The notes under the pieces: generated by a model
Seen by the model: only the letters and a program-made list of their open reading frames with translations
The model's database searches: none
Told to the model about the DNA's origin: nothing
Assembly: GCA_020152595.1 (NCBI GenBank)
Contig: JAIGNY010004599.1
Location: 114,229 to 178,228, forward strand
Length of the DNA stretch: 64,000 nt
Source: Chiridota heheva
Lineage: Eukaryota; Echinodermata; Holothuroidea; Apodida; Chiridotidae
Reading direction: 5' to 3'
Made by a program: the position numbers and the translations under genes
Shown: in pieces, positions 1,005 through 64,000 of the stretch
How positions within the stretch are numbered: position 1 is the first letter of the stretch
Layout of the letters: every line of letters begins with the position of its first letter

Positions 1005-1231
1005 GAACACCATTGTTTGTCGGTGTTGCATTCAGTCCGATATCGGTGCTTAATTTTGTATCAGAGAAGCTTGGCAATCTTTTTTCAAACTATTACAGGG
1101 TCTTGCTCATCATTGCTGGAGGCTTGCCTGTTTCTTATGCCATCTTCTGGCTGCTCTACAACCTTTTTCCTGCAGTGCAGTCATTCTTCACATTTTGCTA
1201 CTCGTGCATTGCGGCTTTGGAATCAATATGG
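1005..1231 (+). CDS. TMEM245: TMEM245 exon A (first exon in window)
   Basis: The 227-nt exon is preceded by a pyrimidine-rich tract ending TTTTGCAG and followed by the donor GTAAGT. It enters in phase 1 (two bases complete a codon) and ends on a codon boundary. It encodes about 75 residues beginning GTPLFVGVAF and ending ALESIW. A hydrophobic stretch, YRVLLIIAGGLPVSYAIFWL, is a likely transmembrane helix. This corresponds to the vertebrate region ending in YFSSLW just before the IWTLVVGY helix. The reading frame stays open a few codons into the intron, but the strong donor and the match of the next exon fix the end. Upstream coding exon(s) are outside the window. Confidence 0.88.
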
Positions 1232-8201: not shown

Positions 8202-8424
8202 ATGTGGACAGTCTTTATTGGTTACATAGTGGTAGTATTCCTATTTTGGAAGCCAGAAAACAAAACCATTTTTGCATACTTGTCTGTCCCTGTACTGATA
8301 GGACTGACCATCAATCTTCTTGCCTTCACTGGTCCTTTAAGGTTTCCAATAGGCTTGATGATTATAGGATTCACGATAGCAGGATATAGTGCAGTTGGTG
8401 AGGGTGTAGAGAAAGCAAAAGAAG
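8202..8424 (+). CDS. TMEM245: TMEM245 exon B (transmembrane segments)
   Basis: The 223-nt exon follows TTTTTCTTAACAG and ends GAAG before GTAAGC. It enters in phase 0 and leaves in phase 1. It encodes MWTVFIGYIVVVFLFW, then FAYLSVPVLIGLTINLLAF and FPIGLMIIGFTIAGY, which are three probable membrane helices. A charged end, EGVEKAKE, follows. It aligns with vertebrate IWTLVVGY through LYEKQN. The ATG at its start is an internal methionine, not a translation start, because the preceding exon joins in frame. A 37-bp tandem array begins about 100 bp after its donor. Confidence 0.9.
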
Positions 8425-12165: not shown

Positions 12166-13429
12166 AAACTAAATATCAAAGCTCAAAATTTAAATTCCAA
12201 GATTAAAAAAGAGGAAGAACTCAAAACAGCTACTGCCTATGAAAGAAACTGAGTTTCAAATGAAATAATAATGTACTGTAAATCTTAGAACGAAATCAAT
12301 TTTTGACCATACTACACCACTCTTTTATAGGCCACACTTGAAATGGCATCCATTAGTGTTAGGTTGCATAGGAAAAACCTTAAATCTTGTGGAATTTTGA
12401 CTCTTATTTAAAAACTCTTGCATCCCTGGTCATGAGACTCTTAAAAATTATAAATTTGTTAGTAATCCATTTCCTGCACAAAAAATTCAAAAACTTTCTT
12501 CTTTAGGTGCAAAATCTGGGAAAATGTGAAGCAATTTTGTGAGCCATGTTAGACTTAAAACAGTTGTTTGATTGCAGCCTCTATCAAATTCATTGACATA
12601 ACTAATTAATAAATGACTAAATTCCTTTTTGGATGGGTATTTTTATCCCAAATTTCAGGTTTGTTGATTATCAAATGTTAATAAGTATCTCAAATTTTCC
12701 CTGATTTTGCATCCAAGGAGGTAATTTGTTGAATAGTTTTTGCAGGGTGTGAATTTTTAACAAATTTATATTGTCAGTTTTAAGTGTTTCATGTGCAAGT
12801 TTGAAAAAAAAAGAGGTTTTTTTCTATGCAGCCTTACACTAATGACCCCCATGATTGCTATTTCAAGTGTGGCCTATACAGTTCAATGTAACTCAGTGTC
12901 TAGTTTGTATACACTTATACAATATATAATTGTTGAAATGACTATTTTCAAGTGCCTGTTACAAAGATTGAAAGCAAAAAAAAAAAAAAAAACTTAACTT
13001 TCCTTACAAATTATAGGTAAGATATCAAAGAATTTAAACTTTAAAATTTTGAACAAAACAAAATGGTTCCACAAGGTCATTTCCAAGGTCAAAAGTAAAG
13101 GTCAAGTGATCAATCATTTATTTAATTTGCCTTCTTGAAAATGACAATGGATTCTATGATCCCTATTTCATTACCTTTATAATGACACCTTTCTCATCAA
13201 CATTGGACCTTCACTTTTCGAGTTATGGGTCTCTAAAATTGTGGGCCCAGCCCATTTTTATGATTTTCTGCAATATTCGACGGTCCATAACTTTTAATCC
13301 ATAGGCCCGATTTCATTCAAAATTGAAATTTGACTTTTATCTAGTGATGAACAAAATATTTTGAACAAATTCTGAGATGGTAATGTATTTATCTTCATTT
13401 TTTGGGGGTGATTTGACATGTAATCACCC
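12166..13429. other. Intron sequence, nothing recognised
   Basis: The segment is A/T-rich with poly-A/T runs (around 12975). No coding or repeat pattern was found beyond short homopolymers. Confidence 0.5.
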
Positions 13430-13522
13430 CCATCTTCTCGGCTGAGCCCAAGACCATCCTGCTTGTCCTCAACTATATTGAGTACTTCCTGCTCAGCCAC
13501 CTTGCCATCTTCTCAGACTCTC
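13430..13522 (+). mobile_element. Fragment of I-type retrotransposon RNase H
   Basis: The DNA CATCTTCTCGGCTGAGCCCA through CCACCTTGCCATCTTCTCAG matches the RNase H region of the elements at 19725-19810 and 50280-50370 (IFSAEAK, LNYIEY and HLAIFSDS when translated). Only about 90 bp remain. Confidence 0.75.
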
Positions 13523-13659
13523 AAGTTTGCCCTTCTTTACATTTTGGACCTATATTAAGTGAAAATTGCTCCAAATTATAATAGGTATGAATATAAATTG
13601 GTAATATTTGGAATGTATGATTTGTTTGACTTTTGAAGACAAAAATGAAAATGTTTGAG

Positions 13660-13775
13660 TATGACCCCCTCCCCCTCCCCCTCCCCCATCTCCTACCCCC
13701 ATCTCCTACCCCTCCCCCATATCCTACCCCCATCTCCTACCCCCATACCCCCTCCATACCCCCCCATCTCCTGCC
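13660..13775. repeat. C-rich simple repeat
   Basis: CCCCCTCCCCC and CTCCTACCCCCATCTCCTAC units. The sequence is strongly strand-asymmetric, with pyrimidine on +. Confidence 0.9.
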
Positions 13776-14010
13776 TTATGAAAGGAATTCTTTCAAACTT
13801 CACAAAAATCTCCCTGATGTGAATTAGGAAAGTCTGTGAGATAATCACTGTATCTCTGGTGCTGTACTGGGCATGCCTGTGTTGGCCATCATTCAGCAAA
13901 CTAATGACCATTGCAAGTGTCACTGGTGAATCATAAATGAGGACAATGACTAAAGGTTGTCAAATGAAGAAATTGCTAAATTTGGAATTTTGTTTTTGTT
14001 CTTTTCATAG

Positions 14011-14069
14011 CTTCACCTGGTGGTTCAGAGAGCAGCACAGAAGGTACCTGTACCAGCAGCTCATCCGAG
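14011..14069 (+). CDS. TMEM245: TMEM245 exon C (short Ser-rich linker exon)
   Basis: The 59-nt exon lies between TTGTTCTTTTCATAG and GTGAGTAAAA. With one base from the preceding exon it encodes A-SPGGSESSTEGTCTSSSSE, a Ser/Thr-rich hydrophilic linker. It leaves in phase 0, which fits the next exon. The vertebrate protein also has a long Ser/Pro-rich low-complexity linker here, so direct residue homology is weak and the call rests on phase, splice sites and position. Its donor is the first, diverged unit of a 39-bp tandem array carrying about a dozen further perfect GGTAAGTAA donors. Use of the second or third donor would add 13 or 26 codons in frame before a stop appears. Confidence 0.78.
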
Positions 14070-15318
14070 GTGAGTAAAATATGTGTATTATACCAACAAA
14101 CAACATTGGTAAGTAAGTTATGTTTATTATACCAACAAACAACATTGGTAAGTAAATAATGTTTATTATACCAACAAACAACATTGGTAAATAAATAATA
14201 TTTATTATACCAACAAACAACATTGGTAAGTAATTTATGTTTATTATAACAACAAACAACATTGGTAAGTAACTTATGTTTATTATACCAACAAATAACA
14301 TTGGTAAGTAAATTATCTTTAGTATACCAACAGACAACATTGGTAAGTAAATTATGTCTGCTATACCAACAAACAACATTTCTAAGTAAATTATGTTTAC
14401 TATACCAACAAACAACAATTCTAAGTAAATTAAGTTTATTATACCAACGAACAACATTTCTAAGTAATTTATCTTTATTATACCAACAAACAACATTGCG
14501 ATGTAAATTATGTTTACCATACCAACAAACAACATTAACATTGCTATGTAAATTATGTTTATTATACCAACAAATAACATTGGTAAGTAAATTATGTTTA
14601 TTATACCAACAAACAACATTGGTAAGTAAATTATGTTTACTATACCAAGAAACAACATTTCTAAGTAAATTATGTTTATTATACCAACAAACAACATTGT
14701 TAAGTAAATTATGTTTATTATACCAACAAACAACATTTCTAAGTAATTTATCTTTATTATACCAACAAACAACATTGCGATGTAAATTATGTTTACCATA
14801 CCAAAAAACAACATTAACATTGTTAAGTAAATTATGTTTATTATACCAACAAATAACATTGGTAAGTAAATTATGTTAATTATACCAACAAACAAGATTG
14901 GTAAGTAAATTATGTTTACTATACCAACAAACAACATTTCTAAGTAAATTATGTTTATTATACCAACAAAAAACATTGCTATGTAAATTATATTTATCAC
15001 ACCAACAAACAACATTGTAAAGTAAATTATGTTTATTATAACAACAAACAACTGGTAAGTAAATTATGTTTACCATACCAACAAACAACATTGTTAAGTA
15101 AATTACGTTTATTATAACAACAAACAACATTGGTAATTATTCCAACAAACAACATTGCTAAGTAAATTATGTTTATTATTCCTACAAACAACATTGGTAG
15201 GTAAATTATGTTTATTATACCAACAAACAACATTGCTTAGTAAATTATGTTTATTATTCCTACAAACAACTTTGGTAAGTAAGTTATGTTTATTATACCA
15301 ACAAACAACATTGAAAAC
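14070..15318. repeat. 39-bp minisatellite starting at exon C splice donor
   Basis: The unit is exactly 39 bp: ATACCAACAAACAACATTGG then TAAGTAAATTATGTTTATT, about 32 copies. The first unit is the exon C donor itself: GTGAGTAAAATATGTGTATT aligns with GTAAGTAAATTATGTTTATT at a spacing of exactly 39 bp (14070, 14109, 14148). About a dozen units keep GGTAAGTAA; others carry TCTAAGTAA, GCGATGTAA or GTTAAGTAA. Because 39 is divisible by three, long ORFs appear on both strands (205 codons + and 348 codons -). These are not genes. Confidence 0.97.
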
Positions 15319-15404
15319 ATTGGTTCTTAAGAAAGGATATTAAAATTTCAATCAATGTCTTTGTTATGTGTAGTTTTAATGTATGTATTTTTGGTGACAA
15401 TGCT

Positions 15405-15618
15405 GAGGGTAAGAAGAACCTATATAGCTTGACTACATATGCTGCACATGTGTGCCAGTTCAATTCCCTGCCCAGCAATGTTGGTACTCATTTTACAGCT
15501 GAGTGGTCTGGAGTAGTGGCTTGTTCAAGGACACAGTGCAGCACTCGCTACAGGAATCGAACCCGGTACCTTTTGCATATGAGCACGACTCCTTAACCAC
15601 TGGGCCACTACATCTCTT
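15405..15618 (-). mobile_element. tRNA-derived SINE
   Basis: On the minus strand, GTAGTGGCCCAGTGGTTAAG (A-box-like) is followed about 30 bases later by GGTACCGGGTTCGATTCCTG (B box). Together they make a tRNA-like 5' head. The body downstream contains TGTGTCCTTGAACAAGCCAC and CAGCTGTAAAATGAG, a composition common in deuterostome SINEs. It is too diverged and embedded to be a tRNA gene. Confidence 0.6.
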
Positions 15619-17083
15619 GGATGTAGAATTATGTAAGTGATGTTGATATCTTCACAACCATACATGTGAATTCTTTGAAAGTTTGACTCATACATGTAGA
15701 TTAGTAATGGTGTTAATATCTTATCTTTCTTATGTTGATGCAAAGCTTGCACAGTTATGCCCCGACATGAAGCAGGCCGGTTTCCGAAACAAAAACTGTT
15801 TTTTAACCGGAAAACCGGTTTTTCACCCATAATGTAAACAAGGCCTCAACATTAAGTGCATTGCATGCACTGTTATATGATAGTATACAGATGTTTGTAT
15901 CACAGTATTTTCTGTAAATCATGATGAAAATGATAACAAAGGCATTGATAAATGAAATGTATTAATAAACTTTAATGTTGTTTGCATGTAAAGTGGTTTT
16001 ATTACCCCATTTGCCCCTCAAATAATGCTGATTTTGCTCATTTGTCAGTCTAGGTCTGAAAGGTATTAAACAGTTTCCGATGTCCCAAGGCAGTCACGTT
16101 AAATAGTTCTGAAAAAGGCTGTGTTGACAGGCCACCTATATGCCCTTATTTGCTCATGATTTCTATTCATAGTGATGATTTCAATTTTCTTTCATTAAAA
16201 AAGAAAAGAAATTTGTTGGATAGTTATAAAACACATGCAAATTAAGCCTTTAAATGCGTCATTTTACGATGCAATGCTAGCCATCGTGTACTTGATTACG
16301 CAGTACAATTGTTGCTCAGTTGCATATAGCCTACAGCAGGAAAATCTTACAGTTGAGATCCCATCCACTTGATACTCAACATTTCTTTGAAACATTAACC
16401 ATGGCTCTTTAAATTCAACCAAAAATAAGAAAATCATTTAACATCCATAATAATTCTGGCTATGCTTTTACTTTAAATTGGCCCTGTTTGTGCATCGCGG
16501 TGGCATTTCAATTATATTTAAGTTACCAAAGAGTCCCACCCTATTGCCTTATAAGGTATTCACAAAAGAAAATGCCCATTAATGAAAAGTAGTGTCCCAC
16601 TCCCCACCAAATTCGTATTTTCTTCTTCAAAATGAAAAAAAGTGATTTGAATACATCATGATTGAAAATTAAACTGAATTACATTGTATTCCGTACTTAA
16701 ACCGGACCTTGTTTCAGCAAGGAGCTATGAAAATATTTCATTTTTACAACACAGGCTGCACACATACACCCAAGTAAAATAAATTCTTTGGCACTCTGCA
16801 GATAAGATTTTTAGTTCTACATTGATTTGAAACATTTAACTATGATAAGCAATATGTTTGGTCACTCAGAATCGTATAAAACGGCAAAACACATCTGTAT
16901 TTGGACATTCTGTTTGTTCTTTCTGCTTGTAAAATGCAGAGATAATGTTATCAATTTATGCATACCAACAAAGCTATCACCTAACGAGTCCACAAAAAAA
17001 TATATAAACTCGCTCTACTTCGAACCAATGAAATCATTCGAGCTTGTACCCCCAAGTGAATCACATGTGCCATGGGTCAATTA
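15619..17083. other. Intron sequence, nothing recognised
   Basis: About 1.4 kb of A/T-rich sequence. A 153-codon open frame starting at 16827 runs into the retroelement fragment at 17123. It has no recognisable domain and is judged spurious. Confidence 0.5.
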
Positions 17084-17122
17084 CAAACTCCTTTCTGCCC
17101 ATGTCACTGATGCATACGTACT
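17084..17122. repeat. Leading partial unit of the 56-bp array
   Basis: AAACTCCTTTCTGCCCATGT then CACTGATGCATACGTACT matches the right two thirds of the 56-bp unit. It is cut off from the main array by the retroelement fragment at 17123-17360. Confidence 0.85.
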
Positions 17123-17360
17123 ATGCTTCCCTCTACAACCATATTTAGTCCTCCTTCCCCACCTCCCTCTCTCACTACATTATTTTTCCACCCATACACC
17201 TCCTCTCTCGATCCCAGAATTCTGGCTTTTAGTTCTCGTGTTTCTCTCAATCTCCCCCTCTTTACTCTCCTTCCTACCTCTGGAATGATCTAACCTCTCA
17301 GGCACAATTTGACTCTTGCTGTTGTGGTGCCGTTAAACTCTCATCAAACAAATAAACAAT
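17123..17360 (+). mobile_element. 5'-truncated I-type retrotransposon, 3' end only
   Basis: ATGCTTCCCTCTACAACCAT onward matches the last 240 bp of the element at 20391-20630, including CTCTCAGGCACAATTTGACT, GTGGTGCCGTTAAAC and a CAAACAAATAAACAA tail. It splits a 56-bp repeat unit between TACGTACT and AAAAGACAAC. Confidence 0.9.
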
Positions 17361-19702
17361 AAAAGACAACGCTGTGTTAAACTCCTTCCTGCCCCTCTAA
17401 CTGATGCATGCGTACTAAAAGACAACGTTGTGTTAAACTCCTTCCTGCCCGTGTTACTGATGCATACGTACTAAAAGACAACGTTGTGTTGAACTCCTTC
17501 CTGCCAGTGTGACTGATGCATACGTACTAAAAGACAACGTTGTGTTAAACTCCTTCCTGCCCGTGTTACTGATGCATACGTACTAAAAGACAACGTTGTG
17601 TTAAACTCCTTCCTGCCCGTGTTACTGATGCACACGTACTAAAAGACAACGTTGTGTTAAACTCCTTCCTGCCCGTGTGACTGATGCATACGTACTAAAA
17701 GACAACGTTGTGTTAAACTCCTTCCTGCCCGTTTCACTGATACATACTTACTAAAAGACAACGTTGTGTTAAACTCCTTCCTGCCCGTGTTATTGATACA
17801 TACGTACTAAAAGACAACGTTGTGTTAAACTCCTTCCTGCCAGTGTTACTGATACATACGTACTAAAAGACAATGTTGTGTAAATTCCTTCCTGCCCGTG
17901 TTACTGATACATGCGTACTAAAAGACAACATTGTGTTAAACTCCTTCCTGCCCGTTTCACTGATGCATACGTACTAAAAGACAACGTTGTATTAAACTCC
18001 TTCCTGCCGGTGTTACTGATGCATACGTACTAAAAGACAACGTTGTGTTAAACTTTTTCCTGCCCGTGTTACGGATGCATACGTACTAAAGGACAATGTT
18101 AGGTTAAACTCCTTCCTGCCCGTGTTACTGATGCATACGCACTAAAAGACAACGTTGTGTTTCAACTCCTTCCTGCCCGTTTCACTGATGCATGCGTACT
18201 AAAAGACAATGTGTTAAACTCCTTCCTGCCCGTGTTACTGATACATACGTACTAAAAGACAACATTGTGTTAAACTCCTTCCTGCCCGCGTCACTGATGC
18301 ATACGTACTAAAAGACAACGTTGTGTAAAACTCCTTCCTGCTTGTGTCACTGATGCATACGTATGAAAAGACAACGTTGTGTTAAACTCCTTCCTGCCCG
18401 TTTCACTGATGCATACGTATTAAAAGACAATGTTAGGTTAAACTCCTTTCTGCCCGTGTTACTGATACATACGTACTGAAAGACAACGGTGTGTTAAACT
18501 CCTTCCTGCCCGTGTTACTGATGTGTACGTACTAAAAGACAATGTTGTGTTGCAACTCCTTCCTGCCCGTTTCACTGATGCATGCATACTAAAAGACAAT
18601 GTGTTAAACTCCTTCCTGCCCGTGTTACTGATACATACGTACTAAAAGACAACATTGTAATAAACTCCTTCCTGCCCGCGTCACTGATGCATACGTACTA
18701 AAAGACAACGTTGTGTAAAACTCCTTCCTGCCCATGTCACTGATGCATACGCACTAAAAGACAACGTTGTGTTAAACTCCTTCCTGCCAGTGTTACTGAT
18801 ACATACGTACTAAAAGACAACGTTGTGTTAAACTCCTTCCTGCCAGTGTTACTGATACATACGCACTAAAAGACAATGTTTTGTTAAACTCCTTCCTGCC
18901 CGTGTTACTGATACATACGTACTAAAAGACAACGTTGTGTTAAACTCCTTCCTGCCCGTTTCACTGATGCATACGTACTAAAAGACAACGTTGTGTTAAA
19001 CTCCTTCCTGCCAGTGTTACTGATGCATACGCACTAAAAGACAATGTTTTGTTAAACTCCTTCCTGCCAGTGTTACTGATACATACGCACTAAAAGACAA
19101 TGTTTTGTTAAACTCCTTCCTGCCCGTGTTACTGATACATACGTACTAAAAGACAACGTTGTGTTAAACTCCTTCCTGCCCGTTTCACTGATGCATACGT
19201 ACTAAAAGACAACGTTGTGTTAAACTCCTTCCTGCCAGTGTTACTGATGCATACGCACTAAAAGACAATGTTTTGTTAAACTCCTTCCTGCCCGTGTTAC
19301 TGATACATACTTACTAAAAGACAACGTTGTGTTAAACTCCTTCCTGCCCGTGTTACTGATGCATGCGTACTAAAAGACAACGATGTGTTAAACTCCTCTT
19401 GCCAGTGTTACTGATGCATACGCACTAAAAGACAACGTAGTGTTAAACTCCTTCCTGCCCGTGTTACTGATGTATACGTACTAGAATACAATGTTGTGTT
19501 AAACTCCTTCCTGCCAGTGTTACTGATGTATACGTACTAAAAGACAACGTTGTGTTAAGCTTTTTCTGCCCGTGTTACGGATGCATACGTACTAAAGGAC
19601 AACGTTGTGTTAAACTTCTTCCTACCCGTCTCACTGAAGCATACGCACTAAAAGACAACGTTGTATTAAACTCCTTCCTGCTTGTGTTACTGATGCATAC
19701 GT
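17361..19702. repeat. 56-bp minisatellite
   Basis: The unit is 56 bp: AAAAGACAACGTTGTGTTAA, ACTCCTTCCTGCCCGTGTTA, CTGATGCATACGTACT. There are about 42 copies with little divergence. Each unit contains the palindromes ACAACGTTGT, ATGCAT and TACGTA. Multi-unit blocks repeat (for example around 18170-18300 against 18540-18700), showing higher-order duplication. One more partial unit follows the second retroelement at 20631-20690. Confidence 0.97.
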
Positions 19703-20630
19703 CTTCCTGACCACTCATCCATCTTTTCAGCCGAGGCTAAGGCCATTCTCCTCGCCCTCAACTTTATTGAGTACTCTCCTCTTAGTCACTTTGCCATTTT
19801 CTCTGACTCTAAGGCTGTTCTTACTTCATTACTCAATCTTAAATGGGATAACCTCACCTGCCACCTCCTCCTCCGGAAACTCTTTTCTCCCACCCTCTGC
19901 AGGAAAAGTGTTCTTTTCTTCTGGATACCCAGCCATGTTGGCATCTCTGGCAATGACAGGGCTGATACAGCCGCTAAGCTTGCCCTTAACCTCCTCCCTT
20001 CCCCTTTTCCCAAAACCCTCTCTGACATCAAACCGCTTATCGCTTCTCTTGTTCGTGACCGCTGGCAAACCTTATGGAACTTCCAAATTGATAACAAACT
20101 CCATGTTATCCAGCCCACAATCCCGATCAAATCCACCATCAAACAACTTTCTCGTATCGACAACGTTCATTTTACCCGTCTTAGAATTGGTCACACCCAC
20201 CTCACTCACTCCCACCTCCTTATTGGTTCCCCCAACCCTCTGTAACAATTGCCACTGCATCCTTACAATCCAACACGTTCTCCTTGCTTGCCCCCTGTAC
20301 AACCTTCCCAGAGCTTCTCTCGCTCCCCACAACTCAATTGCTGAGTTCTTCCAAAAAAATCCTCCAGATAAAATTGTCTCCTTCCTTCAGCATGCATCCC
20401 TCTACAACCATATTTAATCCTCCTCTTCCACCCCCTCTCTACTCTGTTTTTAGTTTTTCCCATGCACCTCCTCTCTCGATCACAGCTTTCTGGCTTTTGT
20501 TCTTGAATTTCTCTCATTCTTCCCTGGTCTCTTTCCTTACTACCTCTAAAATGATCTGACCTCTCAGGCACAATTTGACCTTCGTTGTCGTGGTGCCGTT
20601 AAGACCTCATCAAACAAACAAACAAACAAA
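19703..20630 (+). mobile_element. 5'-truncated I-type retrotransposon (RNase H and 3' end)
   Basis: The copy is about 930 bp. It begins inside the RNase H domain: translation across frames gives SSIFSAEAKAILLALNFIEY, HFAIFSDSKAV and a later FWIPSHVGISGNDRAD. The 3' region and a (CAAA)n tail follow. RNase H motifs are better preserved than in the longer copy at 46130-51305, but the frame is broken near 19850 and 20240. It sits inside a unit of the 56-bp array, between GCATACGT and CTAAAAGACA. Confidence 0.9.
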
Positions 20631-20773: not shown

Positions 20774-21022
20774 AGGGCAACCGGTCCAAGCTCGGAAGAA
20801 ATGGACTCTCCCAAGAAACCATCAAACCTGAAAATAAACACTGCAAGCCCAACCACAACCGAAGAGGTTAGCACAAGCACAAGGTATCTGTATGGACTGG
20901 TGTGGATTTGTATTTTGGTTCGGCTCTGGCTCCACATTGGCCTCATACTGAAACTCTTGCCTTTACCAGTTGTGGTTTATTTTGGGAAGAGGGCAGCAAA
21001 GCACCTTGGCCTGGTAGATATG
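20774..21022 (+). CDS. TMEM245: TMEM245 exon D (linker plus membrane helix)
   Basis: The 249-nt, 83-codon exon follows TATATATGTACAG and precedes GTGAGTAC. It starts and ends in phase 0. The first half is polar (RATGPSSEEMDSPKKPS). The second half, YLYGLVWICILVRLWLHIG and LILKLLPLPVVVYFGKRAAK, is hydrophobic and ends HLGLVDM. This matches vertebrate YFVSLVWAIVGVQIWLN and the LLPVPIAVW...HFGVVDF segment. The LLP(L/V)P and (H)(L/F)G(L/V)VD matches are the clearest anchors. Confidence 0.93.
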
Positions 21023-42985: not shown

Positions 42986-43369
42986 TTCTTGAAGAAAACT
43001 TCCTGAATTTTCCCAACAATTAATAAAAACTTATCAAAAATTGTAAACAAATTTCCTGAAAGTGAAGGAAATTGCATCAAAATTGAAGCAAATTTCACAA
43101 AAATGACAGAAATTTTACGAAACTTGAAGATGTCCAGAGGAAAAGAAGCCATGGAATCTGAAACTTTAAAATCAATTCATTAGACCTTCATTATTGGGGG
43201 GGCCAAGATGGTATTTGGCCTTCCTGGAAAAATTATGAGGGGGCCACGACCCAAGCCCCCACTTCCTATGCCCTGTGCTTCATGGTGGAACTTGGGTGTT
43301 CAATCTTTGTGTTTCACTGCAATTATTCATTTTCGCCCATCTGCTCTCTTCCGCTCTCATGAAGCGGAG

Positions 43370-43945
43370 AAATGATCCATCAATCATCACAGTTAATGCA
43401 CATTATTACCTCGGGCATTATCTTACCATAGGAGAAATGACCCGTCAATCATCACAGTTAATGCACATTACTACCTCGGGCATTATCTTACCTTAGGAGA
43501 AATGATCTGTCAATCATCACAGTTAGTGCACATTATTACCACAGGCATTATCTTTGCTTAGGAGAAATGATCCGTCAATCATCACAGTCAGTGCACATTA
43601 TTACCTCAGGCATTATCTTTCCTCAGGAGAAATGATCCGTCAATCATCACAGTTAATGCACATTACTACCTTAGGCATTATCTTATCTTAGGAGAAATGA
43701 TCCGTCAATTATCACAGTTAATGCACATTATTACCTCAGGCATTATCTTATCTTAGGAGAAATGATCTGTCAATCATCACAGTTAGTGCACATTATTACC
43801 ACAGGCATTATCTTTGCTTAGGAGAAATGATCCGTCAATCATCACAGTCAGTGCACATTATTACCTCAGGCATTATCTTTCCTTAGGAGAAATGATCCGT
43901 CAATCATCACAGTTAATGCACATTATTACCTCAGGCATTATGAAA
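43370..43945. repeat. 65-bp minisatellite
   Basis: The unit is 65 bp: AGGAGAAATGATCCGTCAAT, CATCACAGTTAATGCACATT, ATTACCTCAGGCATTATCTT, ACCTT. There are about nine copies. A block of several units (43490-43630) recurs at 43750-43890. Confidence 0.96.
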
Positions 43946-46129: not shown

Positions 46130-49100
46130 TGCCTTGACCCTCCATCCCCTCCCCGTGATCCACCTGCTACCTCCATTGACCATTCTTTAGCCCCAGCCCT
46201 TAAAGTTATAATCATACAGGCCACCAGTAAACCAGAAAGTTTCAAAAGAGTTTCCCCCTTTCACTCCACAGCCTTCTTTGTACCCTGCCCAAGGTCTCTA
46301 CCCTCAGATCTGGCGATCTCATGGTGCACTGCACCAGGGACACCCAAGTCACCACCCAGCAACACTCAAGCCACCACCCTCCTCACCACCAAAACCCTAG
46401 CTAATACTGGTATTGACGTTACAGTCATCCCCACTGTTCCCTGAAGTCCAGCAAAGGCGTCAATAGAACTAGAAGCTTTGCCTACTTGACCAATAAGGGC
46501 CTCGCTGAGCAACTTGCTAGTCAACATGTTACTAAAGCCCGTCATCATGTTCTAAAGAGAGACGGTGCCGAAACACCCACCAATACCATCTTCCTGACCT
46601 TTGTCACACCAACTCTTCCCTCCCACATCACTGCCGGCTACCTGAAAATCCAAGTCGTTCCTTACATTCCCAAACCACTCCGTTGTCATAAATGCCAGAG
46701 GTATGACCATGGGAAAAAGTCCTGCCGCAGCCAAGCGCGCTGTGGCAATTGTGGATCCCCGGACCATGACAGCACCTCCGGAACCAACACCCCACTCTGG
46801 ACCAATTACGACGGTGCTCACCCAGCCAACCATCCCTCATTCCTAAAAAACTGCCCCACCTGGCTTCAGGAATTGCAGATAACCAAACTGAAAATCCTTA
46901 ATCCCAACACATGACTTACCCGGAGGCCAGAAAACAATTCCTCGCTTCCCTCCACACTAAACCTTCCTACACCCAAAACACAACTAAAACTGACTCACAT
47001 GCCTAAACCAACCTTACCTGGCTCTTCTTACTCAGTCCTAAACCCATCATCATTGGCAACAACCCAACCACACCCATTACCAACCTTCCTTCAACACCTT
47101 TAATGCCATCAAACTCAAGCCCATCTGGCTAACAAACATCAAACCAAGAAACTAATCGACAAACAGCCCACCATCCAAACTCACATGTATGACACTGAAG
47201 AGAACATGGATTGTTTGATTACCAAACCCACCAAACATACTTCTTGTCCAACTTTCAAAAAACAACTTCTCCCAAAGAAACAGGGACAGATAAAAAACAA
47301 AAACAAGCCAACTCAAACCCAACAGATCTTCCTCCAAATAACCCCCTGCCTCCTTATTGCGTGCAACCCAAACAATTACAATAACACTCACAACATTATA
47401 CAATGGAACATCAGGAGCCTTAAGGCCAATTCAGAAGAAATTGACCTACTCGCCACCACCTTCAACCTGGTCGTCTTTTGCCTACAAGAAACCTTCTTGA
47501 AAACCACTGACCATTATTCCCTCAAGAACCTCGCTTACCACCATAAACATCAAGTGGACACTGACAGGGCTTGTAGGGGCATCTTCTTTCTCATTAGACA
47601 CAATATCCCACACAGCCCTGTTCATGTGAACACCAACCTTCAGGTCATCTGTATGTCTGTCTCCGTCTACAAAACCTTCACTCCTTGCAATATCTATCTC
47701 CCCCAATGCCAACGTTTAGCCAACCAGCCTTAACAACCTCATCTCTCAGCTCCCCCTTCCCTTCATTGTTCTTGGTGACTTTAATATCCACAACCCCCTA
47801 TGGGGCTCCAATACCACCATCCCCAGAGGCAAGCTTGTCGAAAATCACTCTTTGACAGCACCGCTTCTCCTTGCTCAACACTAACTCCCCAACCTACTTT
47901 CACCCTGCCACAAGCTCCCTCACCTGTATTGACCTGTCTATCTGTTCCCCCAACCTCCTTGATTTTAGCTGGAAGGTCACTGCTGATCTCTGTGGTAGTG
48001 ACCATTACCCTCTTCTTATTCACTGCAACCTTCAAATCTCCACAGACGACACCCCCAATTGGAACCTCAAGAAAGCCCACTGGTCCCTTTTCAAAACTCT
48101 TTGTGACTCCCACCTCTCCCCCATCTCCTCAAGGGTGAGCATCCCATGTCAAACTTCAGTAAGATCCTTATCAACATCGCCACCTGCTCCATTCCCAAAC
48201 CCCCTCATCACCCCCCAACCTCTGGTTTACTGATAACTGCAAAACCGCCATCAAGAACAGGAAAAGGGCCCTCAGGAACTTCAAAACTAACCTGACCACC
48301 CACAACCTCAACTTCTTTCGCATCAGCCATGCCAAAGCCAGGCGCACTATCAAGGTCAGTAAACCAACACTTGGAACAACTGTATCTCTTCTCTCACCAC
48401 CAGCACCCCCACTAAGAAGATTTGGAGAATGGTTAACAGCTTCCACGGCAGGGTGGGCAAGTCTCCCATCTCTCTTGGAATGATAACCTTCTAACCGCGA
48501 AAAAAGACACCGTTAACACCTCGCAGCCTCTTTCAGCAACATCTCATCCCATCTAACTACCCCAATGCTTTCAAAGCCAAAAAAGCTCTCGGTGTAGCCC
48601 GGAGTATCACATTTCCCTCCGACAATACCAAGAGCTACAACACCTCTCTCACCCTTTCTAAATTAAACCAAACCATCTACAATGCTAGCTACACCTGCAA
48701 GGGCCCAGATAACATCCCCTACCAGTTCCTGAAACACCTCCCCAACAAGGCCACCAATACCCTACTCACGATCCTCAACCACATCAGGTCCTCACACTCC
48801 TTTCCCCTTATCTGGAGGACAGCTATCATCACCCCCGTCCCCAAACCGGGGAATGACAGCACTGACCCCTCCATCTACTGCCCCATCGCCCTCACCTGCT
48901 GTCTCTGTAAAATTATGGAAAGGATTATTAACCAGAGACCAAACTGGCTCCTTGAGACCAACAGAATCCTCTTTCCTCACCAAAGTGGCTTCCGAACATG
49001 TCGCAATACCCTAGACCAGTGAATTACGCTCGGCACCGCTATCCAGGAATCTTTTGCAAGAATTGCCATCGTTTTCAACCTCGAGAAAGCTTTTGACACT

Positions 49101-51305
49101 ACTTGGAAATACGGCATTATCCGCAAACTTTAGACTATCGGCCTCAGAGGCCACCTCCCTATCTTTACTCAAAACTTCCTCTCACCCAGGCAGCTCCAAG
49201 TTCGTATTGGCCACACCCACTCCAACCCCTACCTTCAAGGAGAGGGCATCCCCCAAGGCAGCATCCTCTTCCCCACTCTCTTCAACCTGAGCATTAACGA
49301 CATCGCGGACAATTTTGGCCCCAACATCAAACGTGCCCTCTACGTGGACGACTTCATTATCTTCTACTCCTTCCCTACCTTTTCTCTTGTCGGAAAAAGG
49401 CTCCAAATCAGCCTCAACTGGGTGCAAGACTAGTGCAACAATAGCGGTTTTAAATTCTCCAAAGACAAGACAGTCTGCATGCACTTCTGTCATTTCAACA
49501 ACCTCCACCCCAACCTGAACCTCGTGCTCAATCACAATCGCATCCCTAAAGTTGACCACACTAAGTTCCTGTGGTTAACTCTAGACCCCAAGCTCTCCTA
49601 CAAGCAGCAAAAATCACCAACCTGAAACAGAAGTGCAACAGCTCCCTCAACATTCTCCGCCTCCTCTCCAACACCACTTGGGGTGCGAATCGCCATGCTC
49701 TCAAAATCTTCAAGCTCACAATTCGTGCCAAGCTCGACTATGGCAATATTGTCTACTGTGTCACTCACAATTCTTACCTCAAGTACATCAACACCATCCA
49801 AAATGAAGCCCCCGGGCTTTGCCTGGGTGCCTACAGAACCTCCCCAATCACCAGCCTTAATGTGGAAGCCAACGAACTCCCTTTTCTGCTAAGGAGTAGA
49901 AAACCTCTTCTAAGCTTTTAGAGCCCTCACCAACGCCCAGAACCCTGTTTACAACCTCATTAGGTACCCCAATTACGCATCAAACCAGATCTCCACCATC
50001 TCAGCATCAACCCCGCCACTCTTGGCACCTTCTCCTGATCCAGTTTTCCTCCCTGGACCACCCCCCACCCCTTCCTCCCTTTGATCAAGCTGGGCCTCTC
50101 CACTCATTACAAAATCTAAACCCACCCTAACCTCTTTATCAAGCTCCACAACCAAATCAAAGACCAACTCTCAAACTACACCTCCATCTCTACTGATGGC
50201 TCCAAGGAAGGCGACAAACAGCTGCTGCTGCCGTCATCCAAGACATCATGCTCAGGAGCAGGCTTCCCGACTACTCGTCCATCTTCACGGCTGAGGCCAA
50301 GACCATCCGCCTCGCCCTTAATTAACTTTATTGAGTACTCCCCTCTCAGCCACTTTGCCATCTTCTCCGACTCCAAGGCTGTCCTTACTTTTTTACTCAA
50401 TCTTAAATGGGATAACCCCCATCCCACCTCCTCCGTAAACTCCCCCCCCCCCTCCTCCCTTTTCATGCAGGAAAAGTATTATTTTCTTCTGGATACCCAG
50501 CCATGTTGGCATCCCTAGCAATAACAGAGCTGATGCACCCGATAAGCTCGACCTTAACCTCCCCCCTACCCCATTTCCCAAAACCCTTTCAGACAAAAGC
50601 GCTTATCGCTTCCTTTGTTCGTGGCTGCTGGCAAACCTCATGGGACTCCCAAATTGATAACAAAATCCACATCATCCAGCCCATCATTCCGATCAAACCT
50701 ACCATCCACAACCTCTCCCATGTCAACAACGTTCTCATTACCTGTCTTGGAATAGGTCACACCCACCTCACTCACTCCCACCTCCTTATTGGCTCCCCCA
50801 ACCCCTCTGCAACAATTGCCATTGCACCCTCACAGTCCATCATGTTCTACCATCCACAACCTCTCCCATGTCAACAACGTTCTCATTACCTGTCTTGGAA
50901 TAGGTCACACCCACCTCACTCACTCCCACCTCCTTATTGGCTCCCCCAACCCCTCTGCAACAATTGCCATTGCACCCTAACAGTCCATCATGTTCTCCTT
51001 GCTTGCCCCTGTACAACTGTCCCAGAGCTTCCCTCATCCCCCCACAACTCAAAAGCCAAGCTCTTAGAGAAAAAAAACCCGGATAAAATGATTCCCTTCC
51101 TTCATCATGTTTCCCTTTACAACCGTATTTAGTCCTCCCTCTCCCAACCCCCTCTCTCTACTTCTGTTTTTTTTTCACCCATGCACCTCCTCTCTCGATC
51201 CCAGCTTTCTGGCATTTAGTTCTTGTGTTTCTCTCAATCTCCCCCTGTTTTCTTTCCTTCCTACCTCTGGAATAATCTAACTTTTCATGCACAATTTGAC
51301 CCTCG
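46130..51305 (+). pseudogene. Decayed I-superfamily non-LTR retrotransposon
   Basis: The domain order is gag-like, endonuclease, reverse transcriptase and RNase H, all on + with many stops and frameshifts. Gag (46486-46914) has a zinc knuckle CHKCQRYDHGKKSC (46684-46725) and a second CGNCGSPDH. The APE endonuclease (47391-48060) shows IIQWNIRSLKANSEEIDLL, VVFCLQETFLK, a frame-shifted GDFNIHNP and GSDHYP. Reverse transcriptase (about 48600-49600) shows AFDTTW, GIPQGS and YVDD at 49341-49352. RNase H (about 50190-50500) shows STDGS and IFTAEAK. RNase H after RT points to the I group rather than L2/CR1 or RTE. The copy cannot be active. The 5' limit is uncertain. Confidence 0.88.
50701..50996. 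repeat. 148-bp tandem duplication within the retrotransposon
   Basis: The block starting CATCCACAACCTCTCCCATG and running through GTCCATCATGTTCT occurs twice in direct succession with an offset of 148 bp and almost no differences. The duplication is therefore later than the decay of the element. Confidence 0.9.
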
Positions 51306-55274: not shown

Positions 55275-58200
55275 AGGTTTTTGATACCTTGTACTGTGTA
55301 AATATTTTGATCCACTGTATGGTGAGCATTTCTTGATTCATATATGGTGGGTGTTTCTTGATACCCTGTATGGATAATTCTGTGTATGGTGGGTGTTCCT
55401 TGATACCCTGTATGGTGGGTGTTTCTTGATAACCTGTATGGTTGATTCTGTGTATGGTAGGTGTTTCTTGATACCCTGTATGATGGGTGTTTCTTGATAC
55501 CCTGTATGATGGGTGTTTCTTGATACCCTGTATGGTGGGTGTTTCTTGATACCCTGTATGATGGGTGTTTCTTGATTCCCTGTATGGCTGATTCTGTGTA
55601 TGGTGGGTGTTTCTTGATAACCTGTATGGTTGATTCTGTGTATGGTGGGTGTTCCTTGATACCCTGTATGGTGGGTGTTTCTTGATAACCTGTATGGATG
55701 ATTCTGTGTATGGTGGGTGTTCCTTGATACCCTGTATGGTGGGTGTTTCTTGATTCCCTGTATGGTAGATTCTGTGTATGGTAGGTGTTTCTTGATACCC
55801 TGTATGATGGGTGTTTCTTGATTCCCTGTATGGTTGATTCTGTGTATGTTGATTCTGTGTATGGTGGGTGTTTCTTGATTCTGTGTATGGTGGGTGTTTC
55901 TTTATCCTTGTATGGTTTTTTCTGTTATGTGGTGGGTGTTTCTTGATTCTGTGTATGGTGGGTGTTTCTTTATTCCCTGTATGGTTGATTCTGTGTATGG
56001 TGGGTATTTCTTGATTCCGTGTATGGTGGTTGTTTCTTGATACCCTGTATAGTGGGTGTTTCTTGATTCCGTGTGTGGTGGTTGTTTTTTTATACCCTGT
56101 ATGGTGGTTGTTTCTTGATTCCCTGTATGGTGGGTGTTTCTTGATTCCCTGTATGGTTGATTCTGTGTTTGATAGGTGTTTCTTGATTCCCTGTATGGTT
56201 GATTCTGTGTTTGGTGGGTGTTTCTTGATTCCCTGTATGGTGGTTGTTTCTTGTTTCCCTGTATGGCTGATTCTGTGTATGGTGGTTGTTTCTTGATACC
56301 CTGTATGGCTGATTCCGTGTATGGTGGTTGTTTCTTGATTCCCTGTATGGTGGGTGTGTCTTGATTCCGTGTGTGGTGGTTGTTTCTTGATACCCTGTAT
56401 GGTGGTTGTTTCTTGATTCCCTGTATGGTTGATTCTGTGTATGGTGGTTGTTTCTTGATTTCCTGTATGGTGGGTGTGTCTTGATTCCCTGTATGGCTGA
56501 TTCTGTGTATGGTGGGTGTTTCTTGATTCCCTGTATGGTTGATTCTGTGTATGGTGGGTGTTTCTTGATACCCTGTATGGTGGGTGTTTCTTGATTCCGA
56601 GTGTGGTGGTTGTTTCTTGATACCCTGTATGGTGGTTGTTTCTTGATTCCCTGTATCGTTGATTCTGTGTATGGTGGTTGTTTCTTGATTCACTGTATGG
56701 TGGGTGTTTCTTGATTCCATGTATGGCTGATTCTGTGTATGGTGGGTGTTTCTTGATTCCGTGTGTGGTGGTTGTTTCTTGATATTCTGTATGGTGGTTG
56801 TTTCTTGATTCCCTGTATGGTTGATTCTGTGTATGGTGGTTGTTTCTTGATTCCCTGTATGGCTGATTCTGTGTATGGTGGTTGTTTCTTGATACCCTGT
56901 ATGGTGGGTGTTTCTTGATTCCGTGTGTGGTGGTTGTTTCTTGATACCCTGTATGGTGGGTGTTTTTTGATTCCATGTATGGTGGTTGTTTCTTGATTCC
57001 CTGTATGGTGGTTGTTTCTTGATTCCCTGTATGTTGATTCTGTATGGTGGTTGTTTCTTGATACCCTGTATGGTGGGTGTTTCTTGATTCCCTGTATGTT
57101 GGTTGTTTTGATAACCTGTATGGATGATTCTGTGTATGGTGGGTGTTCTTGATACCCTGTATGGTGGGTGTTTTGATTCTGTATGGTAGATTCTGTGTAT
57201 GGTAGGTGTTTCTTGATACCCTGTATGATGGGTGTTTCTTGATTCCCTGTATGGTTGATTCTGTGTATGCTTGATTCTGTGTATGGTGGGTGTTTCTTGA
57301 TTCTGTGTATGGTGGGTGTTTCTTTATCCTTGTATGGTTTTTTTTTCTTGATTCCCTGTGTGGTGGATGTTTCTTGATTCCCTGTATGGTGGGTGTTTCT
57401 TTATTCCCTGTATGGTTGATTCTGTGTATGGTGGGTATTTCTTGATTCCGTGTATGGTGGTTGTTTCTTGATACCCTGTATAGTGGGTGTTTCTTGATTC
57501 CGTGTGTGGTGGCTGTTTTTTTATACCCTGTATGGTGGTTGTTTCTTGATTCCCTGTATGGTGGGTGTTTCTTGATTCCCTGTATGGTTGATTCTGTGTT
57601 TGATAGGTGTTTCTTGATTCCCTGTATGGTTGATTCTGTGTTTGGTGGGTGTTTCTTGATTCCCTGTATGGTGGTTGTTTCTTGTTCCCTGTATGGCTGA
57701 TTCTGTGTATGGTGGTTGTTTCTTGATACCCTGTATGGCTGATTCTGTGTATGGTGGTTGTTTCTTGATACCCTGTATGGTGGGTGTGTCTTGATTGTAT
57801 GGTGGTTGTTTCTTGATACCCTGTATGGTGGGTGTTTCTTGATTCCCTGTATGGTTGATTCTGTGTATGGTGGTTGTTGATTTCTGATGGTGGGTGTGTC
57901 TTGATTCCCTGTATGGTTGATTCTGTGTATGGTGGGTGTTTCTTGATTCCCTGTATGGTTGATTCTGTGTATGGTGGGTGTTTCTTGATACCCTGTATGG
58001 TGGGTGTTTCTTGAGTGTGGTGGTTGTTTCTTGATACCCTGTATGGTGGTTGTTTCTTGATTCCCTGTATGGTTGATTCTGTGTATGGTGGGTGATTCAC
58101 TGATGGTGGGTGTTTCTTGTATGGCTGATTCTGTGTATGGTGGGTGTTTCTTGATTCCCTGTGGTGGTTGTTTCTTGATACCCTGTATGGTGGTTGTTTC

Positions 58201-60480
58201 TTGATTCCCTGTATGGTTGATTCTGTGTATGGTGGTTGTTTCTTGATTCCCTGTATGGCTGATTCCGTGTATGGTGGTTGTTTCTTGATACCCTGTATGG
58301 TGGTTGTTTCTTGATTCCGTGTGTGGTGGTTGTTTCTTGATACCCTGTATGGTGGGTGTTTCTTGATTCCATGTGTGGTGGTTGTTTCTTGATACCCTGT
58401 ATGGTGGTTGTTTCTTGATTCCCTGTATGGTTGATTCTGTGTATGGTGGTTGTTTCTTGATACCCTGTATGGTGGGTGTTTCTTGATTCCGTGTGTGGTG
58501 GTTGTTTCTTGATACCCTGTATGTTGGTTGTTTCTTGATTCCCTGTATGGTTGATTCTGTGTATGGTGGTTGTTTCTTGATTCCCTGTATGGTGGGTGTT
58601 TTTTGATTCCATGTATGGTGGGTGTTTCTTGATTCCCTGTATGGTGGGTGTTTCTTGATTCCCTGTATGGTGATTGTTTCTTGATTCCCTGTATGGTTGA
58701 TTCTGTGTATGGTGGTTGTTTCTTGATTCCCTCTGTATGGTTGATTCTGTGTATGGTGGGTGTTTCTTGATACCCTGTATGGTTGATTCTGTGTATGGTG
58801 TTGGTTGTTTCTTGATTCCCTGTATGGTTGATTCTGTGTATGGTGGTTGTTTCTTGATTCCCTGTATGGTTGATTCTGTGTATGGTGGGTGCTCTTGATA
58901 CCCTGTATGGTGGGTGTTTCTTGATTCCCTGTATGGTTGATTCTGTGTATGGTGGTTGTTTCTTGATTCCCTGTATGGTTGATTCTGTGTATGGTGGGTG
59001 TTTCTTGATACCCTGTATGGTTGATTCTGTGTATGGTGGGTGTTTCTTGATACCCTGTATGGTGGGTGTTTCTTGATTCCCTGTATGGTTGATTCTGTGT
59101 ATGGTGGGTGTTTCTTTATTCCCTGTATGGCTGATTCTGTGTATGGTGGGTGTTTCTTGATTCCCTGTATGGCTGATTCTGTGTATGGTGGTTGTTTCTT
59201 GATTCCCTGTATGGTTGATTCTGTGTATGGTGGGTGTTTCTTGATTCCCTGTATGGTTGATTCTGTGTATGGTGGTTGTTTCTTGATTCCCTGTATGGTT
59301 GATTCTGTGTATGGTGGGTGTTTCTTGATACCCTGTATGGTTGATTCTGTGTATGGTGGGTGTTTCTTGATACCCTGTATGGTGGGTGTTTCTTGATTCC
59401 CTGTATGGTTGATTCTGTGTATGGTGGGTGTTTCTTGATTCCCTGTATGGTTGATTCTGTGTATGGTGGGTGTTTCTTGATTCCCTGTATGGTTGATTCT
59501 GTGTATGGTGGGTGTTTCTTGATTCCCTGTATGGCTGATTCCGTGTATGGTGGTTGTTTCTTGATACCCTGTATGGTGGGTGTTTCTTGATCCCGTGTGT
59601 GGTGGTTGATTCTGTGTATGGTGGTTGTTTCTTGATTCCCTGTATGGTTGATTCTGTGTATGGTGGTTGTTTCTTGATACCCTGTATGGTGGGTGTTTCT
59701 TGATTCCGTGTGTGGTGGTTGTTTCTTGATACCCTGTATGGTGGTTGATTCTTGATTCCCTGGTGGTTGATTCTGTGTGGTGGTTGTTTCTTGATACCCT
59801 GTATGGTGGGTGTTTCTTGATACCCTGTATGGTTGATTCTGTGTATGGTGGGTGTTTCTTGATACCCTGTATGGTGGGTGTTTCTTGATTCCCTGTATGG
59901 TTGATTCTGTGTATGGTGGGTGTTTCTTGATTCCCTGTATGGCTGATTCTGTGTATGGTGGGTGTTTCTTGATTCCCTGTATGGCTGATTCTGTGTATGG
60001 TGGTTGTTTCTTGATTCCCTGTATGGTTGATTCTGTGTATGGTGGGTGTTTCTTGATTCCCTGTATGGTTGATTCTGTGTATGGTGGGTGTTTCTTGATT
60101 CCCTGTATGGTTGATTCTGTGTATGGTGGGTGTTTCTTGATTCCCTGTATGGCTGATTCTGTGTATGGTGGGTGTTCCTTGATTCCCTGTGTGGTGGGTG
60201 TTTCTTGATTCCCTGTATGGTTGATTCTGTGTATGGTGGGTGTTTCTTGATTCCCTGTATGGTTGATTCTGTGTATGGTTGGTGTTTCTTGATTCCCTGT
60301 ATGGTTGATTCTGTGTATGGTGGGTGTTTCTTGATTCCCTGTATGGTTGATTCTGTGTATGGTGGGTGTTCCTTGATTCCCTGTGTGGTGGGTGTTTCTT
60401 GATTCCCTGTGTGGTGGGTATTTCTTGATTCCTGTGTGGTGGGTGTTTCTTGATTCCTTGTGTGCATTGTATGGTGGTTG
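55275..60480. repeat. 5.2-kb composite 26/42-bp minisatellite
   Basis: Two modules alternate: CCCTGTATGGTGGGTGTTTC followed by TTGATT (26 bp), and the same preceded by CCCTGTATGGTTGATTCTGT (42 bp). A G/T substitution (GGTGGGTG or GGTGGTTG) marks sub-types. Blocks at 55830-56720 and 57240-58130 are near-duplicates of each other. Minus-strand ORFs up to 1,047 codons arise because the modules avoid stops; they have no initiation context or known domain. Confidence 0.97.
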
Positions 60481-60740
60481 TTTCTTGATACATTGTATGG
60501 TGGTGGTCTCTTGATGACCTATGTGGTGATTGGCTATTGATGACCTGTGTGGTGGTTGTCTATTGATGAACTGTGTGGTGGTTGTCTATTGATGACCCAT
60601 GTGGTGGTTGGCTATTGATGACCTGTGTGGTGATTGTCTTTTGATGGTGATGTATGACGTGTGGTGACCCGTTTGGTGATTGTATAGTAATGAACTGTGT
60701 AGTGATTGGCTATTGATGACCTTTGTGCTCATTGTATATT
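60480..60740. repeat. 26-bp transitional repeat
   Basis: TTGATGACCTGTGTGGTGGT then TGTCTA, about ten diverged units. They share GTGGTGGTTGT with the composite array on the left and GTCTAT...TGACCTGTGTGG with the 60-bp array on the right. Confidence 0.88.
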
Positions 60741-61692
60741 AGTGCTTTTAATGATTAGCAACTTTACTAAATGTGTAATCGCTCAAATTTGTGAACGTCT
60801 AGTGATTAATCGTGATTAGTACCGAAATTTCCATCAGCACAAAAAAAAATGCCCCAAAACGATGCTAAGTAAAAAAAAATCGCGCAACTAATATTGACTC
60901 CTATATACAAGTAAATGTTGGGATTCTTATTTAAAACTCATAAAAAGATTCTTTCTACAGTATTATAAATCTTTTTCATAGAAAAAAATTAAGGGAAATT
61001 TGGGTTAGAAATGACAGAACAGTTCCCTTCAATGTAATTTTAGTCCCGATTTTGTGCGACTTCTTTGCCGTTTTCACTGTGCTTACATTATGCATCATAC
61101 ATAATATGCCTTGCTATATAAAAACTGCACCACCACCCAGATATCAATTTCATTTCGATTCTTTCCCAATGTTGCTGTTTTCTCCACGGAACGTGCTGCA
61201 ACTCAGCTGTGTTTAAACCTTTTTTCTCGTATTTTTCATAAGATTTTTTTTTTTCCTTTTTGTAGAATTTATTTATTTACATGCATATTTAGTGAGCACA
61301 ACAATTGAAGCTGTTTTGCTAGTGTATTTTTGGGTCAGTTTTAGGGCTTTTAAAAAGGGATTTTGATTGAGAGAGATTGAAGCCTAATTTTCATGGTGCA
61401 CATTGCTAAAATTTCAGCGAAATCAAAGCAAGAAATATCCCCATTCATAAGTGATTTCTGCTAATTTCTGTTTTTTGTATTTAAAAGGATCATTCTAATC
61501 CCATTTACAATTCATTAAAGTCATTGATTGGAATTTTGTGGGTCAGGCTTGTGTGTTGTTTGAATGGTAGGCCCTATTGATTTTCAATGGCAAGACTGAA
61601 CAACAAAAACGATTAATCGCACAGAGCTTTTTTGTAAACGTTTATTTTACATGCAATCATTCAGTGATTAATCGCTAAACGTTCACAGTACT
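60741..61692. mobile_element. Unassigned insertion splitting a minisatellite
   Basis: The insert is about 950 bp and separates 26-bp units from 60-bp units. Ends AGTGCT and AGTACT are inverted. Subterminal GTGAACGTCTAGTGATTAAT (60793) is an inverted match to ATTAATCGCTAAACGTTCAC (61668), suggesting a foldback or DNA-transposon origin. No coding domain was found. Confidence 0.55.
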
Positions 61693-63416: not shown

Positions 63417-63439
63417 GTATAGTGAATGATTGCATACAA

Positions 63440-64000
63440 TTAGTAATTCCCTTGAACAAAAGTATACAAGCACCCCCCTACACAAAGGTGTACAAGCTCC
63501 CCCTGAACAAAGATATACAAGCTCTCTCTGAACAAAGATATACCAGCACCCCCTAAACAAAAATGTACAAGCGCCCCCTAAGCAAAGGTAAACAAGCGCC
63601 CCCTAAGTAAAGGTGTATTAGCACCCCCTAAATAAAGGTGTACAAGCTCACCCTAAACAAAGGTGTACAAGCACCCCCTAAACAAAGGTGTACAAGCTCC
63701 CCCTAAGCAAAGGTGTACAAGCACCCCCTAAGCAAAGGTGTACAAGCACCCCCTAAGCAAAGGTGTGCAAGCTCCTCCTAAGCAAAGGTGTACAAGCACC
63801 CCCTAAGCAAAGGTGTACAAGCACCCCCTAAGCAAAGGTGTACAAGCACCCCCTAAGCAAAGGTGTACAAGCACCCCCTAAGCAAAGGTGTACAAGCACC
63901 CCCTAAACAAAGGTGTACAAGCTCCCCCTAAGCAAAGGTGTACAAGCACCCCCTAAACAAAGGTGTACAAGCTCCCCCTAAGCAAAGGTGTACAAGCACC
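63440..64000. repeat. 25-bp minisatellite running off the window
   Basis: The unit is GCACCCCCTAAGCAAAGGTG then TACAA, about 22 copies, more uniform to the right. It begins about 25 bp after the donor of exon I and continues past the window end. Confidence 0.96.

Follow-up and report, generated by a model that had tools for sequence, protein, structure and literature searches.

When the 5' splice site of a predicted exon coincides with the first unit of a long minisatellite, the question arises whether the many copies of the splice signal take part in splicing or are simply what the growth of the repeat has left behind. The window, as we call the whole 64-kb stretch of Chiridota heheva DNA analysed here, contains such a locus, in which a 39-bp array occupies an intron from its very first base, immediately after exon C of a predicted gene. 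We favour, at a probability of roughly 0.6, a reading in which the minisatellite grew out of the beginning of the intron and would have left mostly passive donor copies.

The predicted gene around exon C

The name of the gene rests on comparison with a part of the human TMEM245 protein. With tblastn, this query gave 14 listed matches in the window, six of them on the plus strand and in protein order (at 1007, 8202, 20885, 44612, 55092 and 63312; E 0.29 to 1e-4) and eight weak and out of order (E 0.16 to 9.8). A blastp comparison of the joined exons with the same human sequence reached 2e-15 and covered exons B-D. The collinearity of the predicted exons with TMEM245 supports a TMEM245-like gene, whose product would be a membrane protein. 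No family reached its cut-off in a Pfam search of the predicted gene, none of the 824 candidates taken from a large protein database reached E 0.001, and the exon B frame matched no solved structure at E values up to 1. Judged by eye, open frames at 46400-51100 resemble a LINE-type reverse transcriptase (e.g. YVDDFIIFYS), and a related LINE-like piece lies at 19700-20420.

Exon C is preceded by an acceptor AG that follows a pyrimidine-rich tract (TTTTGTTTTTGTTCTTTTCATAG), is followed by a strong donor and has phases that fit those of exons B and D (Table 1). The frame between exons B and D needs exon C, the skipping of which would lead to a frameshift. The 3' end of the exon reads ...TCATCCGAG, and the intron begins with GTGAGTAAAATATGTGTATT. 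An earlier, sequence-only reading of this DNA had placed exon C in a Ser-rich linker, as we also find.

Table 1. Predicted exons of the TMEM245-like gene and features of the 39-bp array; positions are those of the window.
Feature	Position	Strand	Remark
Predicted exon A of the TMEM245-like gene	~1005-1231		Phase-matched joining with B, C and D
Predicted exon B (MWTVFIGYIVV...VEKAKE)	8202..8424	+	TMEM245-like gene; ends in phase 1
Predicted exon C (59 nt), part of a Ser-rich linker, (A)SPGGSESSTEGTCTSSSSE	14011..14069	+	Phase 1 to 0
39-bp minisatellite, 32 units, consensus GTAAGTAAATTATGTTTATTATACCAACAAACAACATTG	14070..15313	+	Dynamic-programming unit segmentation
Unit 1, holding the predicted 5' splice site GTGAGTAA at 14070	14070..14108	+	36 of 39 bases equal the consensus
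Unit 2, donor TTG/GTAAGT at 14109	14109..14147	+	13 residues longer product if used
Unit 3, donor at 14148; in-frame TAA at 14157	14148..14186	+	26 residues longer product if used
Higher-order repeat inside the array	14421..14978	+	14421-14699 repeated 279 bp downstream, 96.4% identity
Predicted exon D (RATGPSSEE...KHLGLVDM)	20774..21022	+	TMEM245-like gene; starts in phase 0

Structure of the array and strength of its donors

Tandem Repeats Finder (TRF) calls the array at 14069-15313 with 32.0 copies, starting one base earlier than our segmentation, at the last G of exon C. The sequence GGTAAGTAAATTATG, allowing up to two mismatches, occurs 24 times in the window, in every case within 14069-15288, against 0.35 occurrences expected. 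In a search of the species' own assembly the one match listed was the locus itself, the counts being lower bounds. Two pairs of units are identical (2 and 32, 11 and 18), and together with the 279-bp higher-order repeat they show ordinary minisatellite turnover by duplication. Unit 1 carries three private bases; unit 32, at the opposite edge, is not set apart in this way. The stretch 12500-17400 contained no RNA family at gathering score, and a 36-base stretch of the consensus had no exact match among viral contigs.

Several descriptive claims of the sequence-only reading were borne out at this level. The second and third donors lie 39 and 78 bp downstream of the first, as it had stated, and its estimate of about a dozen perfect donors in some 32 units corresponds to the 12 units that carry GGTAAGTAA (2, 3, 5, 6, 7, 8, 14, 15, 21, 22, 26 and 32); the GT at the unit start is kept in 16 of the 32. 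Units 1 and 2 read VSKICVLYQQTTL and VSKLCLLYQQTTL, and the frame of exon C stays open through both, the first stop being the TAA of unit 3, so that the proposed extensions by 13 and 26 residues are possible on paper. The array, the period of which is a multiple of three, is also traversed on the minus strand by two open frames, one 299 aa long at 13976-14875 and one 352 aa long at 14005-15063; these frames were not taken as genes. As judged by pyrimidine content only, the array holds no good acceptor, the best of its 33 AGs having 11 pyrimidines in 18 positions, and cryptic exons within the array were rejected on this ground.

Donor strength was estimated with a position-weight matrix approximating the human 5' splice site and with the pairing energy to U1; the U1 5' end was taken without pseudouridine, and a species-specific matrix could shift these approximate scores. 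The sequence-only reading had regarded GGTAAGTAA as a better donor than that of the exon, a claim that the scores do not bear out, since the exon C donor (GAG/GTGAGT) reached 11.17 bits, compared with 9.14 bits for 11 of the 12 perfect units and 10.73 for unit 26, and its U1 duplex -12.4 kcal/mol, compared with -10.7 for the array donors. By both of these crude scores it thus stands above every array donor. Among the 4406 GT sites outside the array, only one, the predicted donor of exon F (11.39 bits), scored as high as the exon C donor, and eight as high as the usual array donor. Three other predicted donors of the gene, those of exons A (8.82), E (7.17) and G (5.16), fell below the array donors by the matrix, whereas in U1 pairing the donors of exons A (-12.2) and F (-11.5) were stronger than those of the array. 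Because of these matrix and U1 scores, we consider the copies credible donors that are probably not superior to exon C's own.

The donor base itself varies strongly along the array. None of the other 39-bp unit columns varies as much as position +1, where G is absent in 14 of the 32 units, the next column reaching 8; a hand registration of the units gave 16 of 31 against 8, and leaving out the higher-order copy (units 17-23) and the truncated unit 28 gave 10 of 24 against 6. Since the units share descent, these losses do not represent independent events. Such variability is the opposite of conservation and speaks against the copies being maintained as decoys. On the other hand, GT is kept in all eight units nearest the exon (units 1-8) and in only 8 of the 24 later ones, at a similar load of mismatches elsewhere (2.4 per unit versus 2.2 in the others, unit 28 left out). 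The retention next to the exon has a P of 0.001 if the units are exchangeable, and 2 of 32 circular shifts equal it, the observed one included; it gives a hint that counts against a purely passive reading.

Origin of the array and rival explanations

The claim that the exon C donor is itself unit 1 of the array found firm support on the intron side, where positions +1 to +20 aligned with the unit at a score of 14, reached by none of 2000 random and none of 2000 GT-anchored sites. On the exon side, local alignment of positions -20 to -1 with the unit scored 6 (P 0.42), and an anchored extension against the unit gave no signal (550 of 1500 as good). When the final 21 bases of the exon were set against the final 20 of the unit in a fixed comparison (TACCAGCA and TACCAACA), there were 12 identities and one gap, a match equalled by 160 of 4402 other GT sites (P 0.036). 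Since the intron side matches and the exon side does not clearly do so, the amplified part appears to be the start of the intron with no more than one exon base; detectable repetition on the exon side goes no further than the final G, although a strongly decayed exon part is possible.

These comparisons bear on an opposite order of events, in which the array came first. An intronic array would have come to adjoin exon C, or the end of exon C would be a decayed unit, and the unit's GTAAGT would have become the donor; in its decayed-unit form this would be a true boundary-spanning repeat, that is, a mirage in the sense used for lancelets (see below). The similarity between exon end and unit end in the fixed comparison favours it, but the two other tests of the exon side do not, and the visible homology begins exactly at G/GT, which array-first does not predict. 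We regard it as unlikely. That an unrelated minisatellite abuts the exon end by chance is hardly credible. Arrays are indeed dense in the window, but for one array start among 24 to lie no more than 1 nt from any of the seven predicted donors P is ~0.008, the 24 arrays having been selected and merged from 124 TRF rows in the window, short ones left out; this position is therefore unlikely to be fortuitous, and the register of the units coincides with the donor as well.

The 24 arrays cover ~36% of the 64-kb window, compared with 3-29% in five further 10-kb stretches of this genome (three lie on the same contig), and this abundance in window and genome was counted in favour of the copies being passive by-products. 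Donor motifs were not found to be enriched in the arrays of the window, of which 20 consensus units, that of the present array among them, were scored: for the best motif the mean was 2.2 bits along the gene strand and 1.6 along the opposite one, and 6 bits were reached by 5 and 3 of the 20 arrays, respectively. Arrays also lie downstream of the predicted donors of exons B, F and G, at 103, 119 and 40 bp, with no clear homology to these donors (GT-anchored P 0.94, 0.22 and 0.056). The predicted donor of exon G (CAAAG/GTATAG) and the unit of the 25-bp array 40 bp downstream (63417-64000), inside which the contig ends, share CAAAGGTATA and CAAAGGTGTA, at P ~0.05. The array 119 bp beyond the predicted exon F donor is a 5.4-kb compound one (55307-60741) with periods of 26, 42, 68 and 126 bp, and a 65-bp array at 43366-43941 carries a strong donor-like motif of 11.1 bits, AAGGTAAGA, that is antisense to the gene.

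According to the preferred reading of growth from the intron start, the initial ~39 bp of the intron, with the donor among them, would first have been duplicated in tandem, and unequal exchange or slippage would then have brought the array to 32 units. The splicing machinery would most likely stay on the first donor, which is presumably kept because it outscores every copy and pairs better than any of them with U1, and the remaining donor copies would be mostly passive by-products. Occasional use of donor 2 or 3, which is possible, would lengthen the Ser-rich linker by 13 or 26 residues, and later array donors, if used, would bring a premature stop. What counts against passivity, besides the retained GTs near the exon, is that the array donors seem good enough by their scores to be used.

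The sequence-only reading had gone further in its interpretation, proposing that the array tunes isoform choice or offers decoy sites to U1. While its premise that unit 1 carries the exon donor stands, neither proposal fits well with an exon donor that tops its copies and a +1 position that is the most variable of all. Tuning, in which unit number and donor integrity would set how often 13 or 26 residues are added, can invoke the strength of donors 2 and 3 (9.14 bits, reached by 8 of 4406 outside GT sites), which are in frame and stop-free, the GT kept in eight of the eight units nearest the exon, and a human precedent in which variable minisatellites at exon-intron boundaries are reported to give alternative splicing via novel introns (PMC2812944). 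The openness of the frame is weak evidence, however, because a 39-bp period keeps the frame by its length alone and the minus-strand frames are open too; moreover, the human introns are formed from repeats in exons, an event of another kind (PMC2812944). With the exon donor scoring above every copy and the donor base so variable, we hold tuning to be quite unlikely. A more elaborate form appears very improbable to us, namely that the intron-proximal array acts as a length-variable splicing rheostat, in which donors 2 and 3 would give in-frame insertions, later donors would give stop-containing transcripts, and turnover would keep GT only near the exon. It is still harder to believe that the dozen or so strong U1 sites with which this 6.7-kb intron opens work as a landing strip for U1, either as decoys or in suppressing premature polyadenylation. 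The 12 GGTAAGTAA sites would each pair at -10.7 kcal/mol, and the best donor motif of the unit beats nearly all shuffles of the unit (P 0.001), but the donor base is not conserved, donor-like motifs are not enriched in the arrays of the window and the 11.1-bit motif of the 65-bp array lies on the wrong strand.

Known systems and biological meaning

The genome of this sea cucumber measures 1.10 Gb in 3744 contigs, and lancelet genomes are about half that size. In lancelets, repeats called mirages have been described as minisatellite-like and as containing exon-intron boundaries, in Branchiostoma Adh3, the globin genes BflGb6 and BflGb9, and TnC (PMC3087553). The Adh3 units are given there as 10-72 bp long, and many mirage units, though not all, keep the splice signal (PMC3087553; PMC3902484). 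A further account describes the same for lancelet Adh and troponin C and adds PGBD5, with 60- and 108-bp repeats at splice sites (PMC3902484); splicing is reported as undisturbed in lancelet genes with such repeats (PMC3087553; PMC3902484).

The Chiridota array shares with the mirages a minisatellite-like tandem repeat within a gene (39 bp x 32 here), a unit that contains a splice site (unit 1 holds the predicted donor and 16 of 32 units keep GT) and a unit length within the range of Adh3 (PMC3087553). The private bases of unit 1 recall the lancelet edge units described as escaping homogenisation (PMC3087553), whereas unit 32 shows no such feature. Unlike mirages, which are described as spanning exon and intron, the present array detectably repeats one exon base or none, and its 32 units compare with the 3 and 6 described for BflGb6 (PMC3087553). 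On the donor side, therefore, the array resembles a lancelet mirage, although its unit does not clearly span the boundary.

Other systems appear more remote. Human genes in segmental duplications are described as carrying variable internal tandem repeats at exon-intron boundaries, with units of 30 bp on average, and as generating alternative splicing from them with RNA support (PMC2812944). The likeness lies in a minisatellite that touches an exon-intron boundary; the human repeats are characterised there as recent, RNA-supported and of ~4 units on average, (PMC2812944), in contrast to the 32 intronic units of the present array. They offer a distant precedent for isoform tuning, which would be possible at this locus. 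Tandem duplication of proto-splice sites is held to explain some new introns in Drosophila (PMC2891723) and to be an intron source in the RdRp gene of potato (PMC4974935). There too, tandem duplication multiplies splice signals (PMC2891723; PMC4974935), but in those cases the duplicated sequence is exonic and gives rise to a new intron, whereas the present array stays within a single intron and shows no sign of a new one. With ordinary intronic minisatellites the array shares its period, the higher-order repeat, the decay of its units and the presence of neighbours of similar period, and it differs from them in starting at the donor itself. In the part of the literature considered, judged by titles and the beginnings of abstracts, nothing else resembled a donor-abutting array.

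If mirage-like arrays occur outside lancelets, repeat-rich genomes may more widely amplify splice sites through minisatellites as a by-product, and the loci concerned would then be natural tests of how the spliceosome chooses one donor among near-equal copies. Were donors 2 and 3 to be used, repeat variation could alter the length of the protein between individuals.
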